From Desulfobacterales bacterium (lineage in GTDB: Bacteria > Desulfobacterota > Desulfobulbia > Desulfobulbales > JAGXFP01): a DNA stretch of 64,000 nt. The notes under the pieces are model-generated. The model saw only the letters and a program-made list of their open reading frames with translations. It had not been told where the DNA came from and did not search any database. Position 1 is the first letter of the stretch. Each line of letters starts with the position of its first letter. Both the position numbers and the translations under genes were made by a program. The DNA lies in contig JAGXFP010000047.1 in the NCBI GenBank assembly GCA_024637225.1, positions 1-64,000 of the forward strand, written 5' to 3'. This document shows, piece after piece, positions 9,161-61,818 of this stretch.

Positions 9161-9414
9161 CCTGAATCCTGAGCGTTCGAGAACGATGCAGATGCAAGGC
9201 GGCAACGATGTAGTTTACTGATAGTATATCAAAAAATTGCCAACACGAAAAAATTGCCAACACGGTAGATGCATCGTTATCGAACGCCCGCGAGCGGCGG
9301 AGTGAATCGTAACGACTCAGCTAAAAAACGATTATCTCATGGAACTACAAATTGATAAAGCTGAGTCGAGCAGCTTGTCTGCTTCGTACGAAACTTATGC
9401 CCTTGTGATTCAGG
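9161..9414. repeat. Repeat family B copy 3 (composite with family C segment)
   Basis: Begins CCTGAATCCTGAGCGTTCGAGAACGATGCAGATGCAAGGCGGCAACG, matching the 24297 copy; right part shares CATAAGTTTCGT...ACTCAGCTTTAT (rc) with 50470-50570; ends GATTCAGG. Confidence 0.8.
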
Positions 9415-11724: not shown

Positions 11725-12107
11725 CGGAAAGATAGACCCCGTGGAAATACACCGGCGGCGGATTCATCATCTCCGCCGTTTCCTGAAACGCCTTGAACCC
11801 CATCCTGAATCCGTGAACTCAGGCGCCGGGAGTGGGCGGCGTTGATTATTCTCATGCCATATTCGACGGGCAGCCGGCACCCGAAATTACTCCAGCAGCA
11901 AACGCCTTGGCGGCAGGGTCTGCCGCCACTGATTCAGGAACATGGTAATGCCGACATTACCGATGATCATTCCAGGATGATTGTACCATAACATCGAGCC
12001 GTCACTACCCCGTTAAGGGCTATGAAAATCATACATGGTCAGGAATTGAGATGGAAAGAACAAGTTCACGGTAAGAAGTTGATGGCGGCAGAGCCTGGAT
12101 CTGATCA

Positions 12108-14140: not shown

Positions 14141-14314
14141 GATGGCGTCGCAAAAAGTCGAAAAAGGGGTTGGCTAAGCAAAAATCGTCAGATCCAAGCG
14201 CGCGTAAATTTCGAGGAATGAAGCGTACTTCAGTACGCTGCAATGACGAGACAATTTGCAGCAACGCAGGAGCTGGCGATTTATGCCCTTGAGGGTGCTT
14301 TTTGCGACGCCATC
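14141..14314. repeat. Repeat family A copy 1 (MITE-like, 174 bp)
   Basis: Terminal inverted repeats GATGGCGTCGCAAAAAG / CTTTTTGCGACGCCATC, flanked by 6-bp direct repeat AAGTTT (14135-14140, 14315-14320). Confidence 0.85.
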
Positions 14315-14419
14315 AAGTTTGACACGAGCGGTCCGGCCGGGTAATAGTGCGGCGAGAGCAAAACCGCTGATAATTCGCAAAGGCTGGCCAATACCGGCGG
14401 CAGCCGGAACAAACGGAAC

Positions 14420-18645: not shown

Positions 18646-18795
18646 GATGCGTTCGCAAAAAGTCTGGGGATGGCTAAGCTAAAATCGTCAGATCCAAGGC
18701 GCGCAAATTTCGAGGAATGAAGCGTACTTCAGTACGCTGCAATGACGAGACAATTTGCAGCAACGCCGGAGCTGGCGACTTTTTGCGACGCCATC
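18646..18795. repeat. Repeat family A copy 2 (150 bp)
   Basis: GATGCGTTCGCAAAAAGTC ... GACTTTTTGCGACGCCATC, flanked by 7-bp direct repeat AATCCTT (18639-18645, 18796-18802). Confidence 0.85.
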
Positions 18796-19654
18796 AATCC
18801 TTCCAGATCGACAGGGCTCGGCTGTACACCTCGGATCGGGATATGTTCAGATCAGCCGCGATTTTCCGGCAGACATCCCGCATGGAAAGATCGGATTGGT
18901 CCCGATACCAGGCCAGAATATCCTCAAGTTCACCTCCGGTCGGACCTTCGTTTTCAGAGGCGGCCGGGCCGACGATCACCACAAACTCGCCCTTGATCCG
19001 GGGCCGGGCGGCCAGATCGTCAAGGACCGAAGAAAGACGCGCATGGAACAGTTCTTCATGGAGCTTAGTCAGCTCCCGGCCGAGAAAAACAGGGCGGTCT
19101 CCGAAAACCTCGAGACATTCCCGCAGGGATTTGATTATCCGGCGGGGCGATTCATAGAAGAGCAGGGGCCGGCCCGCCTCCAGCAGACCCTGGAGGAGAC
19201 GGCGCCGTTCGCCTTTCTTGCCGGGCAAAAAACCGAGAAAGATGAAGCCTCCCTCTTCAAGACCCGCCACGCTGACTGCGGCGGTCAGGGCCGACGGCCC
19301 GGGGATCGGCACAACCCGGATCCCCTCGCCGATGGCCTGCCGGACCAGAACGGCCCCCGGATCGGACACCGCCGGCGTACCCGCGTCGGAGACCAGCGCC
19401 ACATCCTCCCCCCCGAGTAGTTTTTCGATAACCTGCCGGGAGCGGCTGAACTCCTGTCCCTTATAGTAGCTGACCAGAGGGGTATGAATATCGAGACTGG
19501 TCAGCAGCTTTCTGGTATGCCTGGTATCCTCGGCCGCGACCAGGGCGACCTCGCTCAGAATCCGGATTGCCCTCCGGGTGATATCCTCCAGATTGCCGAT
19601 CGGGGTGGCCACCACATAGAGCACGCCGGAACCCTCACCCTGAGCGCTTTTCAC
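18794..19654 (-). CDS. rsmI: 16S rRNA (cytidine-2'-O)-methyltransferase
   Basis: GVLYVVATPIGNLEDITRRAIRILSEV...AEDTRHTRKLL...SDAGTPAVSDPGAVLV. Confidence 0.96.
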   Translation of the reverse strand: MKSAQGEGSGVLYVVATPIGNLEDITRRAIRILSEVALVAAEDTRHTRKLLTSLDIHTPLVSYYKGQEFSRSRQVIEKLLGGEDVALVSDAGTPAVSDPGAVLVRQAIGEGIRVVPIPGPSALTAAVSVAGLEEGGFIFLGFLPGKKGERRRLLQGLLEAGRPLLFYESPRRIIKSLRECLEVFGDRPVFLGRELTKLHEELFHARLSSVLDDLAARPRIKGEFVVIVGPAASENEGPTGGELEDILAWYRDQSDLSMRDVCRKIAADLNISRSEVYSRALSIWKD

Positions 19655-20610: not shown

Positions 20611-20652
20611 TTGACACCGGCGCCGCTGGCTGTTAGTATATGAGCATATACT
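20611..20652 (+). promoter_or_regulatory. Sigma70-type promoter overlapped by ArsR/SmtB-type operator
   Basis: TTGACA (20611-20616), 17-bp spacer, TAGTAT (20634-20639); perfect inverted repeat AGTATATG-AG-CATATACT at 20635-20652. Confidence 0.75.
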
Positions 20653-20669
20653 CACATGCAAGGTGCCGA

Positions 20670-21038
20670 ATGAACAAACTCCAGGAAGACGCCTGTCTAT
20701 GCCGGATAATCCATACCGATCGGGTTGAAAAAGCCCGCCGCGCCGCGCTTGAGACGAGGGAGCACCAAAGATTGACCAATATATTCAAGGCCATGGGCGA
20801 TCCGACCCGTTTACGGATCCTGTTCGCCCTCTCCCAGGAGGAGATGTGCGTCTGCGACCTGGCCGCCTTCCTGGATATCACCGAGTCGGCCGTCAGCCAT
20901 CAGCTGCGGATGCTCCGCCAGCTTTATCTGGTCGCCAACCGCCGCCAGGGTCCGGTCCTTTATTACCGCTTAACCGACGAACATATCAGCCGCTTGATTG
21001 CTATCGGCCTTGAACATCTCAGGGACCTGAATCCATGA
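20670..21038 (+). CDS. ArsR/SmtB family metal-responsive repressor (CadC/ZiaR-like)
   Basis: CLC near N-terminus, CVCDL alpha-3 motif, SAVSHQLRMLR recognition helix, C-terminal DEHISRLIAIGLEHL alpha-5-like site. Start at 20670 preferred because ATG 20640 lies within the operator, upstream of the predicted TSS. Confidence 0.9.
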   Translation: MNKLQEDACLCRIIHTDRVEKARRAALETREHQRLTNIFKAMGDPTRLRILFALSQEEMCVCDLAAFLDITESAVSHQLRMLRQLYLVANRRQGPVLYYRLTDEHISRLIAIGLEHLRDLNP

Positions 21039-21266
21039 CGGCTTTGTGGGGAATTTCACTTTATCCGTTTGTAATTGCATTAGATAATGCTTTTTCTCTG
21101 GATTGCCATGGTTCACCCCGCCGCTCTGCAGAGCGCCCGATAACGGCGCATCTGCGTCCCGCAGCCCTTGGGGTGCCGCGTTGGCAACTTGTTGATATAC
21201 CATTAGTATTATCAACATTGTTGCCGCCTTGCATCTGCACCGTTCTCGAAAGCTCACGGTTTCAGG
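21026..21266. repeat. Repeat family B copy 2 (inverted relative to copy 1)
   Basis: CCTGAATCCATGACGGCTTTGTGGGGAATTTCACTT ... CACCGTTCTCGAAAGCTCACGGTTTCAGG is nearly the reverse complement of 24297-24515, plus a small internal insertion. Confidence 0.88.
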
Positions 21267-21282
21267 AGAAAATAAAGATCCA

Positions 21283-22395
21283 ATGACTTTTATCATTAAC
21301 GTTTTAATGGCATCCTGGGACCTTCTCCTGGACGCCTCCGTATATATCCTCTTCGGCATCGTAATCGCAGGGCTGCTGAAGAGCTTCCTGTCCACGGAGT
21401 ACGTGGCCAGACATCTCGGCCGGGGCCGCTTCGGCCCTGTCTTTAAGGCGGCGCTGTTCGGTATCCCTATACCTCTCTGTTCCTGCGGAGTAATGCCCGC
21501 CGCCGCCTCCCTCAAAAAACAGGGTGCCAATAACGGCGCGACCATCGCTTTCCTGATCTCCACCCCGGAATCGGGGGTCGACTCGATCAGCGTCACTTAT
21601 GCCCTGCTCGACCCGATCATGACAGTGGCCCGGCCGGTCGCCGCCTTCGTAAGCGCCGTGACGGCCGGTATCATCGAAAGCTTGTTCGGGCGGGAAGCAA
21701 GGCCGATCCCGCCGCCACTCGTCACCTTGCAGGGCGGCAGTCCCGGCCCGAGCGGTAATGGCGCCAACGATCAGGGAATTTTTGTCAGGGTCGGGGCAAG
21801 TCTCAGATACGCATTTGTCGAATTGTGGGGCGATCTGGCAATCTGGTTTGCTTTCGGCCTGGTACTGAGCGGGATCATCACCGTCTGGATCCCCCAGGAA
21901 ATATTTATCAACTATCTTGGCGGCGGCATCACCTCGATGCTGGTAATGCTGGCAGCGGGCATTCCGCTCTACATCTGCGCCTCCGCCTCGACCCCGATCG
22001 CCGCCGCCCTGATCCTCAAGGGGGTCAGCCCCGGCGCCGCTCTGGTCTTTCTGCTGGTCGGCCCCGCCACCAATATGGCCTCCCTCTCCATCCTCACCGG
22101 CCTGATGGGCAAAAGGACCACCCTTCGCTATCTTCTGGTGCTTTCGGTAACCAGCGTCACTTTCGGGCTGCTCCTGGACAAGGTCTACCAGTGGAGCGAT
22201 ATTTCCGCCCAGGCCGTAGTCGGCCAGGCCGGGGCGATCATGCCATACCCCATCCAACTGGCAGGCGCCATTCTTCTGCTCATTCTCTCGGCAAAGCCTT
22301 TTTATCTGGCAAGCCGCAGGCTGTTCTCCCGATTCGGCGCCCCGGGCGAGGGGGATAACGGCTGCGACTGCTCCAACGGAAGTTGTCGGGAATAG
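21283..22395 (+). CDS. SO_0444-family Cu/Zn-type efflux permease (ArsP/DUF318 superfamily)
   Basis: ALFGIPIPLCSCGVMPAAASLKKQGANNGATIAFLISTPESGVDSISVTYALLDPIMTVARP; Cys-rich tail CDCSNGSC. Confidence 0.88.
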   Translation: MTFIINVLMASWDLLLDASVYILFGIVIAGLLKSFLSTEYVARHLGRGRFGPVFKAALFGIPIPLCSCGVMPAAASLKKQGANNGATIAFLISTPESGVDSISVTYALLDPIMTVARPVAAFVSAVTAGIIESLFGREARPIPPPLVTLQGGSPGPSGNGANDQGIFVRVGASLRYAFVELWGDLAIWFAFGLVLSGIITVWIPQEIFINYLGGGITSMLVMLAAGIPLYICASASTPIAAALILKGVSPGAALVFLLVGPATNMASLSILTGLMGKRTTLRYLLVLSVTSVTFGLLLDKVYQWSDISAQAVVGQAGAIMPYPIQLAGAILLLILSAKPFYLASRRLFSRFGAPGEGDNGCDCSNGSCRE

Positions 22396-22653: not shown

Positions 22654-24309
22654 TTGATTTGTCGCCCTTTACAAATCGAGAATTACGGTGGACGCAAAAT
22701 GGTCTGCGAACAACCTGCATTCAATATAAGCAAAGATAAATTCGAAGGCATCCTCTTCGACCTGGACGGAGTGGTCACCAAAACCGCGAATGTGCATGCG
22801 GCCTCCTGGAAGAAACTCTTCGACGAATATCTGGAGGGGCGGGCCGGGCCAGACGGGAAGTGGCAGCCCTTCGACCTCGATTCCGATTACAGCACCTATG
22901 TCGACGGCAAGCCGCGCTATGACGGAGTTGCGAGCTTCCTTAAATCTCGAGGCATCGTTTTGCCTTACGGCAACCCGGGTGACCCCGTGGATGCCGGGAC
23001 GGTCTGCGGCCTGGGCAACAAAAAGAATCAAATATTTAACGAGCATCTGCAAAGCCATGGCGTCGAACGTTATGAAATTGCCGTTGAACTGATCCGCCTA
23101 CTCAAGAAAAACGGCTTCAAGACCGGGGTTGTCTCTTCCAGCAAAAATTGCCGGACCGTGCTTAACGCCGCCGGCATCGAAGAGTTATTCGATGTGCGGG
23201 TCGATGGCGTCGTTTCCGAACAACTAGGTCTGAACGGCAAACCGGCGCCGGATATTTTCCTTGAAGCAGCCCGACGCCTTGAGGTATCCCCCGCCCGGGC
23301 AATCGTCCTGGAAGACGCGATATCCGGAGTTCAGGCCGGCAGCCGCGGCCATTTCGGCTGCGTTATCGGAGTGGACAGAAGCGGCCGCGCCGAAGCCTTG
23401 CAGGAACAGGGCGCCGATGTCGTGGTAAAGGTGCTTTCCGAACTTACGGTGGAAGGGCAAATTCCCCTTTGGGAACATGACATGGAAGAGCTGCCGTCGG
23501 CGCTGGCCTCCCTTCCCGAGATCCGGAAGCTGCTCGCAGCCAGGCAACCTTTCATTGCCCTTGACTATGACGGCACCTTGACTCCGATCGTCGAAAGTCC
23601 CGAACTGGCGAATCTGTCTGATGAAATGCGCGACGCCGTCGTGACCCTGGCCGATAAATCCGTGGTAGCGATAATCAGCGGCCGCGACCTGAGCAATATC
23701 AAAAAACTTGTCTCAATCGACAGCCTGTTCTACGCGGGAAGCCACGGCTTTGACATCTCCGGTCCCGCCGGCCGGCGACTCGGTTCGCAGCAGGGGGTTA
23801 AATTTCTGCCGGTTCTTGATCGCGCCGAACAAAAACTCCGGACCCTGTTGGACAATATCCCGGGCACCCTGGTCGAACGCAAAAAATTTTCCATCGCGGT
23901 CCATTTCCGAAAGGTGGCTGAAGAGAAGTTACCGGAGGTGGAAGCGGCGGTCGCTCAAGTCCTGGAATCCCATGCCGGACTTCGCAGAAGTTCAGGTAAA
24001 AAAATCTTCGAGCTGCAACCGGAAATCGACTGGCACAAGGGTAAGGCCCTATGCTGGTTGATGGAGGCCCTTGACCTGAACCGGCCCGAGGTTCTGCCCT
24101 TCTACCTCGGCGACGACCTTACCGACGAAGACGCATTCGGGGTTCTCCAGTCCGAAGGGATCGGCGTGGTCGTAAAGGGTGATGAAGCGGATGCGGCCCC
24201 ACGCACTTCGAGAGCTCGATATGTGCTGGAAGACTGTCGACAGGTCAGGGATTTCCTAGAAGCGCTTAGCGGAATGCTTCAGGAGAAAACCGATGACCTG
24301 AATCCGTGA
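22654..24309 (+). CDS. Fusion of HAD beta-phosphoglucomutase-like domain and trehalose-6-phosphate phosphatase (OtsB-like)
   Basis: N-term GILFDLDGVVTKTANVHAASWKKLFDEYL...VLEDAISGVQAG; C-term FIALDYDGTLTPIVESPELANL...VAIISGRDLSNIKKL...LGDDLTDEDAF. Alternative start ATG 22699. Confidence 0.88.
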   Translation: MICRPLQIENYGGRKMVCEQPAFNISKDKFEGILFDLDGVVTKTANVHAASWKKLFDEYLEGRAGPDGKWQPFDLDSDYSTYVDGKPRYDGVASFLKSRGIVLPYGNPGDPVDAGTVCGLGNKKNQIFNEHLQSHGVERYEIAVELIRLLKKNGFKTGVVSSSKNCRTVLNAAGIEELFDVRVDGVVSEQLGLNGKPAPDIFLEAARRLEVSPARAIVLEDAISGVQAGSRGHFGCVIGVDRSGRAEALQEQGADVVVKVLSELTVEGQIPLWEHDMEELPSALASLPEIRKLLAARQPFIALDYDGTLTPIVESPELANLSDEMRDAVVTLADKSVVAIISGRDLSNIKKLVSIDSLFYAGSHGFDISGPAGRRLGSQQGVKFLPVLDRAEQKLRTLLDNIPGTLVERKKFSIAVHFRKVAEEKLPEVEAAVAQVLESHAGLRRSSGKKIFELQPEIDWHKGKALCWLMEALDLNRPEVLPFYLGDDLTDEDAFGVLQSEGIGVVVKGDEADAAPRTSRARYVLEDCRQVRDFLEALSGMLQEKTDDLNP

Positions 24310-24515
24310 GCGTTCGAGAACGGTGCAGATGCAAGGCGGCAACGACGTTGATAATACTAATGGTATATCAACAAGTTGCCAACGCGGCAGATGCGCCGTT
24401 ATCGGGCGCCCCGCAGGGCGGCGGGGTGTACCATGGCAATCCAGGGAAAAACGATTTTCTAATGCAATTACAAACTGATATGGTGAAATTCACCACGAAG
24501 CCGTCACGGATCCAG
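24297..24515. repeat. Repeat family B copy 1 (219 bp)
   Basis: Ends CCTGAATCCGTGA / TCACGGATCCAG; flanked by 6-bp direct repeat CGATGA (24291-24296 and 24516-24521). Confidence 0.88.
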
Positions 24516-24517
24516 CG

Positions 24518-26929
24518 ATGAGTAAATGGTCATTGATATATGAAGGTTTCGAGCCGGGAAAGGAGGATCTGCGCGAAGCATTGTGTACCCTCGGCAATGG
24601 CTATTTTGCCACTAGAGGCGCAGCGGCGGAAGCGGAGGCCGACAACACCCATTATCCGGGAACCTATCTCGCCGGCGGCTACAATCGTCTGAAAACGGAG
24701 ATCGCCGGCCGGGTAATCGAAAACGAAGACCTGGTGAATCTGCCGAACTGGCTGCCCCTCACCTTTCGTATTGATGACGGGGAGTGGTTCGATCTGAAAT
24801 CGGTTGAAATCCTTTCCTATCGACAGGAGCTGGATATTAAAAATGGCCTGCTCCTGCGGAATGTGCGTTTCCGGGATGAGAAAAAGCGGCTGGTCACCAT
24901 GCAAAACCGGCGCCTGGTCCATATGGGAAATTATCACTACGCGGCCCAGGAGACCACTCTGATCGCGGAAAACTGGTCGGGCCGGATCGAGGTGCGCTCC
25001 GCACTGGACGGCCGCGTGATAAACGCGGGGGTGGAACGCTATAAAGAACTCAACGCCAAGCACCTTGAACCGCTTGATACCGAAAAGCTGGACGAAGAGA
25101 CGATTTACCTCGAAGTCCGAACCAGTCAGTCAAGGACCAAAATTGCCCAGTCGGCGGCAACTCGAATATTAAAAAAGGGCCGGAGTTTACCCCTGAAACG
25201 GACCACGGTTCGGGAAAGCGGCTATATCGCTCAGCATTTCACGCTGGAGATCGCGGAGGGGGAATCGGTCACCATTGAAAAAATTGTTGCCCTGTTCACC
25301 TCCAGCGATCGCGGCATCTCGGAATGCGGCCTCTCCGCGCGCGAGGCCCTCAAGCAAGTGGGATCTTTCGCGAATCTGCTCGAAAGTCACGTTCTGGCCT
25401 GGAAGGATTTATGGCGCCATTTCGAGTTAAAATTTGAGTCGAACAAAAACAGCAAGGGAGATCGCACCCCCCGTATTCTCCACCTCCATATATTTCACCT
25501 GCTCCAGACCACCTCCCTGCACACCAAGGATCTGGATGTTGGGGTCCCGTCCCGAGGATGGCATGGAGAGGCTTACCGGGGCCATATCTTCTGGGATGAA
25601 CTCTATATTTTCCCCCTCCTTAACTATCGGATCCCCGCGATCACCAAGTCCCTTCTCATGTACCGTTACCGCCGTCTGGATGCGGCTCGCAAATTGGCAA
25701 GGGATACGGGACACCAGGGTGCCATGTATCCCTGGCAAAGCGGCAGCAGCGGCCGCGAGGAAAGCCAGCAGCTTCATCTCAATCCCAGGTCCGGACGATG
25801 GCTTCCCGACAACTCTCATCTCCAGCGCCATATAAACGCGGCAATTGCCTATAATCTCTGGCAATACTACCAGGTAACCGGGGACAAGGAGTTCCTCTCC
25901 TTTTACGGGGCGGAAATGCTCTTTGAACTCGCGCGTTTCTGGGCAAGCGCCTCCACCTATAATGCCGAGGCCGGCCGCTACGAAATCCTCGGGGTCATGG
26001 GTCCGGACGAATACCACGACGCTTACCCCGATTCGACAAAACCGGGCTTGAACAACAACGCCTATACGAACATTATGGCGGTCTGGGTATTGAGCCGCGC
26101 CCTGGAACTGTTTGAGATCCTAGACGAGGTTATCTGTCGGGGACTGTGCGAAAAGATCAAGATCGGTGAGGATGAAAAGCGGCTGTGGCGGGAAATCACC
26201 CGCAAGATGAAAGTGCCTTTTCACGACGACGGAATCATCAGCCAGTTCGAAGGCTACGAGCACCTGCACGAATTCGACTGGCAGGCACACCGGGAAAGGT
26301 ACGGTGACATCCAGCGCCTGGATCGGATCCTGGAAGCCGAAGACGATACGCCGAACCGCTACAAGGCGTCAAAACAGGCCGATGTGCTGATGCTTTTTTA
26401 CCTTTTCTCCTCAGAGGAGTTGCAGGAGATTTTCGAGGGACTGGGCTACCCCTTCGAATATGAAACGATTCCCAAAAACATCGAATATTACAACAGCCGG
26501 ACTTCCCACGGCTCCACCTTGAGCCGGGTCGTCCACGCCTGGGTGCTGACCCGGTCGGACCGGGCGCGTTCCTGGAAGTTTTTCCTGGAGGCCCTGGAAA
26601 GCGACGTGAACGACATCCAGGGGGGGACCACGCCCGAAGGCATCCATCTCGGCGCGATGGCCGGCGCGGTGGACATCCTTGACCGCGCCTATACGGGCCT
26701 GACGGTCCGAAACGATGTGCTGTGGTTTAACCCCGTTCTGCCGGAGGAAGTCGGCAGGCTGCATCTACACATCCGCTTTCGCGGTCACTCGCTGGAAGTT
26801 GATATAACCGGGAAAAAACTCCAGATCCGAGCCCTGGCTTGTGCCGGCAGACCAGTAAAGATCGGCTTTATCGACCGGGTTTTTGAGCTCAAAATGGGCA
26901 AGGATCTTGACTTCGAGTTGAGCAGCTAA
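24518..26929 (+). CDS. Glycoside hydrolase family 65 protein (trehalose/kojibiose/nigerose phosphorylase-like)
   Basis: 803 aa; GRHIFWDE-like YRGHIFWDELYIFPLL, GVMGPDEYHD catalytic region, TSHGSTLSRVVHAW, EGIHLGAMAGAVDI. Confidence 0.92.
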   Translation: MSKWSLIYEGFEPGKEDLREALCTLGNGYFATRGAAAEAEADNTHYPGTYLAGGYNRLKTEIAGRVIENEDLVNLPNWLPLTFRIDDGEWFDLKSVEILSYRQELDIKNGLLLRNVRFRDEKKRLVTMQNRRLVHMGNYHYAAQETTLIAENWSGRIEVRSALDGRVINAGVERYKELNAKHLEPLDTEKLDEETIYLEVRTSQSRTKIAQSAATRILKKGRSLPLKRTTVRESGYIAQHFTLEIAEGESVTIEKIVALFTSSDRGISECGLSAREALKQVGSFANLLESHVLAWKDLWRHFELKFESNKNSKGDRTPRILHLHIFHLLQTTSLHTKDLDVGVPSRGWHGEAYRGHIFWDELYIFPLLNYRIPAITKSLLMYRYRRLDAARKLARDTGHQGAMYPWQSGSSGREESQQLHLNPRSGRWLPDNSHLQRHINAAIAYNLWQYYQVTGDKEFLSFYGAEMLFELARFWASASTYNAEAGRYEILGVMGPDEYHDAYPDSTKPGLNNNAYTNIMAVWVLSRALELFEILDEVICRGLCEKIKIGEDEKRLWREITRKMKVPFHDDGIISQFEGYEHLHEFDWQAHRERYGDIQRLDRILEAEDDTPNRYKASKQADVLMLFYLFSSEELQEIFEGLGYPFEYETIPKNIEYYNSRTSHGSTLSRVVHAWVLTRSDRARSWKFFLEALESDVNDIQGGTTPEGIHLGAMAGAVDILDRAYTGLTVRNDVLWFNPVLPEEVGRLHLHIRFRGHSLEVDITGKKLQIRALACAGRPVKIGFIDRVFELKMGKDLDFELSS

Positions 26930-31821: not shown

Positions 31822-32014
31822 TGACATGTTTGCAAAAGTCAAAAATGGGATGGCTAAGCATGCAATACCCTTTGCGGGTGAAAATCGTCAGATCCAAGGC
31901 GCGCAGATTTCGAGGAATGAAGCGTACTTTCAGTACGCTGCAATGACGAGACAATTTGCAGCAACAAAGGAGCTGGCGATTTATGCCCTTGAGGGTGCTT
32001 TTTGCGACGCCATC
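31822..32014. repeat. Repeat family A copy 3
   Basis: Shared core AAAATCGTCAGATCCAAGGCGCGCAGATTTCGAGGAATGAAGCGTACTTTCAGTACGCTGCAATGACGAGACAATTTGCAGCAAC; right end GCTTTTTGCGACGCCATC; left end degenerate. Confidence 0.8.
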
Positions 32015-32062
32015 AAATACTAACCAGACCATATATATACTAACCCATTCCAAAGAGTCCGG

Positions 32063-50575: not shown

Positions 50576-51823
50576 CGACTGAAAATCATCGATTTGTAAG
50601 CGATCATCAAGGATGCCGGGAAGCTCGCCGGCGAAAGCGCGCAGAACCGGAAAACGGCGCCCGCCCGGTTCCTGTAAAATCCTATGCAGGCTGAGCGCCG
50701 CCGGGGCCAAAAAGGCGCGAAAAAAAGGTTTGCGCCTCACCCCGGAGAGAAAGGCGAAGGCGCCAAGGATCTGGAGGTTGCGCTGGATGGAAAGCAGATA
50801 ATAACTCTCGATCGTAAAAGCGGCCCCTCCTCCGGGATATCCAGCCAGAACCTCGTTATATTTTTGCACAAGCCGCTCCTGGACCTGGGTCGACAGCGAC
50901 ACATAAGGATCGATCAACAGCGAGGCCAGATCATAACCGAGCGGCCCGAAACGCCCCCCCTGGAAATCGATGACCCGGAGGACGCCGTTATGGCGCATGA
51001 GATTGCGGGACTGAAAATCCCGGTGCAGAAAAAAACCGGCCGGGGCCGCCGAAGCCAACTCGGCCAGCTCAACAAATTCTTCGGCTAGCCCGGGTGGCGC
51101 ATCAATCCCCAGAAGCCCCCGGCAAAATGACTCCAGAAAATAACCGGACTCGCGGGAAAGCATGAGCCGGCGATCATATATTCCGGTTTGCCAACACCAT
51201 TCCGCCTGAAAACCTTTGCCGCCGACCACCTGCATCCGGGCCAGAAGGACCACCGCCTCTTCGTAGACCGCGATCAGCCTCTCATCCGGCCACTCGCCCG
51301 CTGGTAAGCGATCACAGGGTACCGAATCTGCTGTGTTATCGGCCTGCTCATGTACACCAGTACCCATCGCAGGCCGATGCCTTGCATCTCCACCACCCTG
51401 TAATCGCTTACAGTCTTGGAGATTCGCCAATTCTGGGCAGCTTGTCCCGTGATCGGTTACACCGATTGTAATCTCGTCATGCAGTAACACGGCGCCCAGG
51501 TCTTCACAGGCGATAACCCCGGTTTCGGAATCATAGGCGAATATCTCGGGAACCTGCACCCCGCTACGGCGCAGATGACCACCGATCAACCGGGTCGAAC
51601 GGGATTCAGCCAGGCCGTGTTCAGCGGAGCGGTTCGGTAAAATCAAGACCAGGGAATGTTGCTTATGCTCCGCCCGATAGAACCGGCGTTCGGAGCCGTC
51701 CCCGGCCAGCAGGCTGAGTTCAGCTTTGCGAGGATCGAATCCCGCTTCCAGGAGCAGCTTCGCGACGGCGCACCGTTCGGGCGCGGTTATGTTAACCGCA
51801 AGATCAATCGACAACGATCTCAT
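50570..51823 (-). CDS. amgK: AmgK-like sugar kinase (aminoglycoside phosphotransferase family), carrying an in-frame repeat insertion
   Basis: LLAGDGSERRFYRAE...FFLHRDFQSRNLM...LRVIDFQGGRFGPLGYDLASLLIDPYV; ATG 51823 near the murU-like stop; repeat-derived 53-aa segment internally. Confidence 0.8.
   Translation of the reverse strand: MRSLSIDLAVNITAPERCAVAKLLLEAGFDPRKAELSLLAGDGSERRFYRAEHKQHSLVLILPNRSAEHGLAESRSTRLIGGHLRRSGVQVPEIFAYDSETGVIACEDLGAVLLHDEITIGVTDHGTSCPELANLQDCKRLQGGGDARHRPAMGTGVHEQADNTADSVPCDRLPAGEWPDERLIAVYEEAVVLLARMQVVGGKGFQAEWCWQTGIYDRRLMLSRESGYFLESFCRGLLGIDAPPGLAEEFVELAELASAAPAGFFLHRDFQSRNLMRHNGVLRVIDFQGGRFGPLGYDLASLLIDPYVSLSTQVQERLVQKYNEVLAGYPGGGAAFTIESYYLLSIQRNLQILGAFAFLSGVRRKPFFRAFLAPAALSLHRILQEPGGRRFPVLRAFAGELPGILDDRLQIDDFQSP
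51304..51460. repeat. Repeat family R copy 2 (long form), inside amgK-like CDS
   Basis: GTAAGCGATCACAGGG ... internal CCCTGTAATCGCTTAC ... CCCGTGATCGGTTAC; same arrangement as 61656-61818. Confidence 0.88.
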
Positions 51824-54430: not shown

Positions 54431-54515
54431 GTAGCTCTAGCTCCGGCGTTACTGCCCATTATCTCGTCATTACAACGTACCGGAGCAGGCTTCATTCCTA
54501 GAAATTCGCGCACCA
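54431..54515. repeat. Degenerate repeat family A copy (reverse orientation)
   Basis: AGCTCCGGCGTTACTGCCCATTATCTCGTCATTACAACGTACCGGAGCAGGCTTCATTCCTAGAAATTCGCGCACC resembles the reverse complement of the family A core. Confidence 0.65.
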
Positions 54516-54523
54516 TGGACAAG

Positions 54524-61644: not shown

Positions 61645-61655
61645 ATTGATTAAGG

Positions 61656-61818
61656 GTAAGCGATCACAGGGTACCGAATCTGCTATGTTATCGACCTGCT
61701 CATCTCATGTGCATCAGTACAAATCGTGCAGGCCGATGCCTTGCATCTCTGGCACCCTGTAATCGCTTACTGCTGGGAGATTGGCCAATCCTGGGCGACT
61801 TACCCCAAGACAGCTTAC
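61656..61818. repeat. Repeat family R copy 3 (long form, intergenic)
   Basis: GTAAGCGATCACAGGGTACCGAATCTGCTATGTTATCG ... CCCTGTAATCGCTTAC ... CTGGGAGATTGGCCAATCCTGGGCGACTTACCCC; near-direct flanks GATTAAGG / GATTAACG. Confidence 0.85.

Follow-up and report, generated by a model that had tools for sequence, protein, structure and literature searches.

The window analysed here, 64,000 nucleotides of a Desulfobacterales contig, holds two copies of a MITE at gene junctions (Table 1). Copy 1 lies between an ArsR-family regulator gene (arsR) and a permease gene; copy 2, its reverse complement (arms 88–96% complementary), lies between a two-domain HAD-hydrolase/trehalose-phosphatase gene and a GH65-family gene. 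Compared with the 220-bp consensus, copy 1 is 93% identical, leaving aside 21 inserted bases, and each of its terminal repeats (TIRs) has one mismatch. The 3′ end of arsR reads GAC CTG AAT CCA TGA. A bridging frame starts at the ATGA over the arsR stop and ends at the ATGA over the permease start (21283), and the bridge of copy 2 finishes at the ATGA that overlaps the GH65-family start (24518). The preliminary description of this DNA had reported the DLNP* end of arsR, the bridging frame with ATGA overlaps at both ends, and a copy at 24297 in the opposite orientation that gives its host gene the same tail and a bridge to the next start; all of these read in the sequence as it described them.

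Its boundaries needed correction. The interval 21026–21286 had been treated as one feature, but the element occupies only 21026–21266, and the last 20 bases are the decayed duplication plus the native permease leader. It had also seen no clean target duplication at 21026, because that duplication has decayed. The duplication is indeed not clean, but it is present as AGGGA/AGAAA, with native AGGGA/AGGGAG in relatives; that it matches at only three of five bases we count against the explanation favored below. Together with the TIR end CAGG, the AGAAA forms AGGAG, 14 nt 5′ of the permease ATG. At the second junction, the HAD/phosphatase-like and GH65 parts form one 1144-codon open frame in the relative G004 (L078); in the window, the two parts are separate, overlapping genes with the MITE between them.

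Table 1. Coordinates of the two element copies, their parts, and the neighboring genes in the window
Feature	Position	Strand	Remarks
ArsR-family regulator (arsR)	20640–21038	+	PF01022, E=1.1e-17; native end LRE* changed to LRDLNP*
Target duplication, upstream copy AGGGA	21021–21025	+	Relatives: Shine-Dalgarno-like AGGGA at arsR end
MITE copy 1	21026–21266	+	241 bp; filler-first on +, core at right end
Left TIR of copy 1, CCTGAATCCATGA	21026–21038	+	Gives arsR stop TGA (21036–21038) and bridge ATG (21035)
Bridging ORF of copy 1	21035–21286	+	83 codons; not conserved between copies
Right TIR of copy 1 (TCACGGTTTCAGG on +)	21254–21266	-	
Target duplication, decayed downstream copy AGAAA	21267–21271	+	Sequence
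Permease (ArsP_1 / PF03773)	21283–22395	+	Native start kept; start aligned in G002, G003, G004
Two-domain HAD-hydrolase/trehalose-phosphatase gene	22654–24309	+	PF02358, PF00702; end became DLNP*, empty-site tail E*
Target duplication of copy 2, GATGA, perfect	24292–24296 and 24517–24521		
MITE copy 2	24297–24516	-	220 bp; orientation opposite to copy 1 (core-first on +)
Conserved core of element (copy 2), 132 nt	24297–24428	+	Covarying stem-loop
Bridging ORF of copy 2	24306–24521	+	GTG start, 71 codons
GH65-family glycosyl hydrolase/phosphorylase	24518–26929	+	PF03632, PF03636; start codon inside duplicated target GATGA

The element family and its probable mover

The same 13-bp TIR, CCTGAATCCGTGA, bounds the element at both ends. 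In the element's own genome (G000), 239 TIR-like ends were found at one mismatch or fewer, against 0 with a reversed-pattern control, and a DNA search gave at least 46 matches (40 of 123 candidates scored). For 38 copies delimited with their flanks, the 5-bp duplication was perfect in 22 and matched at four of five bases in 13; perfect duplications were 83% A+T in a set of 77 elements that had already been filtered on duplication match. Most copies measure 217–222 bp and carry no element-borne gene. The many dispersed copies, the length below 600 bp, the TIRs, the fixed 5-bp duplication, and the empty orthologous sites identify the family as a MITE, as do ends common to an autonomous element, which was detected in relatives but not in G000. 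A search at the level of the order placed the element in 20 of 146 genomes. The relatives (G handles) are draft genomes in which stretches around elements were sampled, with a bias to copies found via similarity or exact TIRs, and ORF calls were mechanical save where Pfam supported them. We searched the literature on MITEs in this bacterial group and found no paper.

The window also contains a degenerate relative of the element (9161–9360, 75% identity over 205 nt) and a 135-bp short element bounded by the TIRs (11804–11938). Another genome of the order, G106 (L244–L283), has 655 TIR-like ends in 2.7 Mb, approximately one per 4 kb, with length classes near 219, 244, and 127 bp. Elsewhere, elements measure just 55–68 bp from TIR to TIR (L054:539–593, L055:555–622, and L251:6381–6435), which suggests that the TIRs alone may be enough for mobility.

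TIRs that start with CCT and 5-bp duplications are features that we take to point to IS1380. We searched twelve element-carrying genomes of the same order for PF13701 and found complete IS1380-family elements in two: a 1661-bp element in G075 (L178:1–1661) with the TIR exact at both ends, and a 1656-bp element in G038 (L179:1343–2998) with one TIR mismatch and an ATGTA/ATGTA duplication. Both transposases are IS1380 by NCBIfam NF033539 (E of 4e-102 and 4e-100), and the MITE TIR matches at 13/13 positions at three ends and 12/13 at one. Relatives carry IS1380 elements that end in this TIR, one of them with a short duplication. No IS1380 (PF13701) transposase was detected in G000 (88% complete) or in G002, so the mover has to be inferred from these relatives; an IS1380-family transposase acting in trans most likely moved the element. 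The MITE has only ∼13–15 nt per end in common with L178 and L179, so simple internal deletion of these two elements does not account for it. Other sources were rejected. As to an autonomous copy in the same genome, four TIR pairs 3–4 kb apart look like separate elements, and the two with listed ORFs hold ordinary genes; the PF01609 transposases at C49 and C35 are without these TIRs.

Correia/NEMIS, ERIC, and Rickettsia palindromic elements are short interspersed palindromic repeats that are transcribed with genes or inserted in them. The MITE resembles them by description rather than by sequence comparison, and we do not claim membership for it. A closer precedent for elements that supply gene ends is found in the passages of PMC5896051 on QMITE1 and QMITE2 of Coxiella burnetii, non-autonomous elements of ∼150–400 bp with TIRs and direct repeats and ∼50 copies each. 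According to those passages, QMITEs overlap the 3′ ends of functional genes and give them a stop or a few residues (at ubiB, 2 bp and the stop only), and QMITE2 has a highly stable stem structure (PMC5896051). QMITEs differ from the MITE here in sequence and in their duplications (2–3 and 7–11 nt vs. 5); DUF1658 peptides are annotated in QMITE1 copies, whereas our element shows no coding selection, and the passages concerned make no link to IS1380 (PMC5896051).

Insertion at the arsR end and TIR-encoded tails

The empty site is preserved in three relatives (G002, G003, and G004), where the orthologous arsR ends in ..LRE/IRE/SRE* a few nt 5′ of the permease gene and the element is absent. Among 51 further arsR–permease junctions from related genomes, in some of which the upstream ORF was not cleanly traceable, no TIR was found. 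When the two window flanks are joined and one duplication is dropped, the reconstructed end is HLRE*, which places the insertion in the last sense codon of arsR. Insertion in that codon (GAA|TAA) turned the E* end of arsR into DLNP*. The codon for D is made up of GA from the target and the C that opens the TIR, and LNP* is written by the TIR alone. The site at 24297 likewise shows a change from E* to DLNP*.

These tails follow from how the TIR reads, C-CTG-AAT-CCR-TGA. Of the three frames in which a gene can enter it, two meet a stop (CC-TGA and C-CTG-AAT-CCG-TGA). RTGA is present at 69 of 76 ends. Wherever a gene runs into the TIR in the frame that reads LNP*, it again acquires an xLNP* tail and an RTGA overlap. 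Counting ORFs with at least 100 aa in G000 and G002, we found 27 that read into an element; in 17 of these, the reconstructed ancestral stop is within 8 codons, and xLNP*-type tails recur among such ORFs. The elements persist at gene ends, where they add xLNP*, or one residue and a stop, to the encoded protein. The matching tails and gene overlaps thus stem mostly from the fixed end sequence of the element. Where the preliminary description had suggested overlap beyond chance, the DLNP* tail and the 4-nt overlap on the upstream side come with the TIR itself; the open bridge with the downstream overlap, on the other hand, is unusual in occurring twice in one window.

We consider the following account highly probable as a whole. 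A transposase acting in trans, most likely of the IS1380 family, would have placed a MITE ∼219 bp long at 21026 and duplicated 5 bp of target. The insertion point is the last codon of arsR, so that reading continues through the duplicated target into the TIR and stops there. The permease gene keeps its native start, both the insertion point and the duplication being upstream of it. Every same-frame insertion gives xLNP* and an RTGA stop–start overlap. In copy 1, frame 0 of the element happens to contain no stop and has the phase that lets it finish at the permease ATGA. On this account, a 13-bp transposon end explains what looks like a designed gene overlap, and many unrelated proteins can receive an identical C-terminal LNP tail and stop from a single TIR.

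Bridging frames within operons

PMC6728339 and PMC10666635 report that overlapping ATGA gene pairs show translational coupling by termination–reinitiation. The ATGA/GTGA stop–start overlaps found here have the arrangement for which that coupling is reported (PMC6728339, PMC10666635), here as a feature of the sequence. Unlike in such gene pairs, one partner at our junctions is a nonconserved frame inside a mobile element, and translation of the bridge would be the corresponding prediction. Open bridge and downstream overlap together are reproduced by 5 of 60 full-length copy orientations when placed at each window site; to meet this geometry twice in one window is unusual, yet it was picked after the fact. 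As a control, we placed other elements into observed ORF ends and computed the expected rate (swap-in). Among ten ORF ends that stop at the TIR TGA (frame 1), 4 cases were observed against 0.25 expected. When the window copies were left out, these frame-1 ends gave 2 against 0.07; a second class of ends gave 1 against 0.23.

From three genomes, we assembled an intra-operon set: 10 sites flanked by co-directional genes. The bridge was open at 6 of the 10 sites (1.43 expected by swap-in, P = 0.001), and at 5 of 10 its stop was no more than 8 nt away from the next start (0.34 expected), with the 8-nt window and the site definitions set while looking and the thresholds thus partly post hoc. Without the two discovery copies, 4 of 8 bridges were open (1.11 expected, P = 0.016), and 3 of 8 ended near the next start (0.17 expected, P = 0.0002). 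Among the sites, L212 was counted as real on Pfam and inspection after the automatic filter had called it doubtful, and L247 is an element of just 40 bp with no Pfam support on either side. In the third genome, G106, a replication set beforehand and of little power, the bridge was open at 1 of 3 operon sites and ended near the next start at 0 of 3; by end class, G106 gave 0/8 and 1/7. One further batch of G002 contigs and nine other genomes yielded no clearly usable intra-operon site.

The control weakens an account of the bridge by chance only: because intra-operon bridging is commoner than swapped-in copies predict, chance alone may not be the whole account. The excess hints at survivorship, with cells possibly favoring those insertions that leave an open frame between operon genes. 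Tentatively, the host may keep operon insertions whose element frame is open and in phase, the element itself not having evolved for it. An equally tentative mechanism is that ribosomes restarting at RTGA would cover the insert, lower Rho-dependent polarity, and hand over by termination–reinitiation. Besides the excess of open and near-start bridges, with and without the window copies, survivorship is consistent with sites at L214 (an ABC ATPase gene followed by a POTRA/BamA-like gene), L012 (a CBS-domain protein gene followed by a CoA ligase-like gene), and L212 (a thiamine-phosphate synthase gene followed by an ORF). At 24297, moreover, the native AGGAG was left 5′ of the element, and the GH65 start is now without an obvious Shine-Dalgarno of its own. 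Against survivorship stand the small numbers, the choices made while looking, the G106 result, an insertion between V-ATPase subunit I and K genes (L031) that has no bridge, and the absence of a Shine-Dalgarno before the GTG/ATG restart. The earlier proposal of selection for coupling-compatible insertions keeps some force from the open bridges in excess of swap-in expectation, but it is held back by the few and partly post hoc sites, the weak replication in G106, and the V-ATPase counterexample. Should larger samples bear out the intra-operon excess, genome sequence alone would suffice to measure both what insertions into operons cost and ribosome coverage as their rescue.

Conserved core, filler, and coding potential

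In the majority of ten genomes compared within the order, the first 128 nt of the element (core-first) match the window copy at 84–93% identity; the extremes are 97% in the same-genus G002 and 71% in G011. The filler of about 68 nt is, outside the genus, at or near shuffled-sequence identity. Length is nevertheless held fixed, and 89 of 94 elements of 200–235 bp measure 217–222 bp (including L168–L175 and L304–L326). The 132-nt core forms a long stem-loop with 97.4% of cells paired. Changes on both sides of a pair occur at 13 pairs and in 51 cells, compared with 6.4 and 12.4 in shuffled controls; slid controls reach no more than 7 and 10.

Core and fixed length are candidates for serving either cis-requirements of transposition or an RNA role. 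That the core acts as a transcribed RNA stem-loop, a site of mRNA processing or stability, with insertion into transcribed junctions as part of its biology, is possible but somewhat doubtful. The covariation far above both controls favors it, as do a single-strand fold z of -8.0 for the core-first consensus and an excess of G-U over A-C deviations on the core-first strand (29 vs. 12, P = 0.01), from a structure that had been fitted with G-U allowed. A DNA cruciform or a palindrome bound by transposase would covary too, however; an Rfam search of the element gave no match at the gathering score or at E≤1, and both orientations relative to transcription occur, the two window copies included.

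Less likely still is a broader reading, in which order-wide MITEs with IS1380 ends, made of a covarying 132-nt core and ∼68 nt of sequence-free, length-fixed filler, would persist in operons preferentially when read through in phase, as a length-measured, translation-compatible linker. A length-locked, sequence-free filler beside a covarying core is, in itself, a testable feature.

The preliminary description had also proposed that the element evolved to permit translation on both strands. This did not hold up: we found neither stop depletion nor a conserved frame, and the TIR, which closes two of three entry frames with TGA, is a terminator rather than permissive. Thirty full-length copies contain 442 six-frame stops against 433 ± 14 in dinucleotide shuffles, and at least one interior frame is open in 15 of the 30, against 13.3 ± 2.7 when shuffled. 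Frame 0 is open across the element at 11 of 76 ends. In the bridge frame that starts at 21035, stop gains across copies number 31 against 15.1 ± 3.6 expected, and synonymous changes in the bridge frame of copy 1 are below expectation. A small protein encoded by the element (VSVRERCRCKAATMLIILMVYQ... on one strand, MTALWGISLYP... on the other) is very improbable: the consensus frame 0 is open, the other strand is open in some copies, and frame -0 has 128 synonymous changes against 100.5 ± 8.8 expected, but the stop-filled frame -1 has a larger excess (144 vs. 100), so that the excess tracks the conserved hairpin and not coding, while the consensus of frame -0 contains a stop, lengths vary freely modulo 3 (14/7/3), stop gains in frame +0 are twice expectation, and neither peptide matches Pfam. 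We rejected this reading, as frame, stop, and synonymous tests across copies show no coding selection.

Other repeats share the window with the MITE. A second dispersed family (AAATCGTCAGATCCAAGGCGCGC...TTCAGTACGCTGCAATGACGAGACAATTTGC) lies at 14182–14316, 18681–18815, 31881–32016, and 54439–54519, with copies up to 98% identical, and a two-copy repeat (GGTAAGCGATCACAGGGTACCG...GCAGGCCGATGCCTTGCATCTC) with ends GGTAAGCGAT/ATCGCTTAC lies at 51303–51411 and 61655–61770 (93–96% identical).
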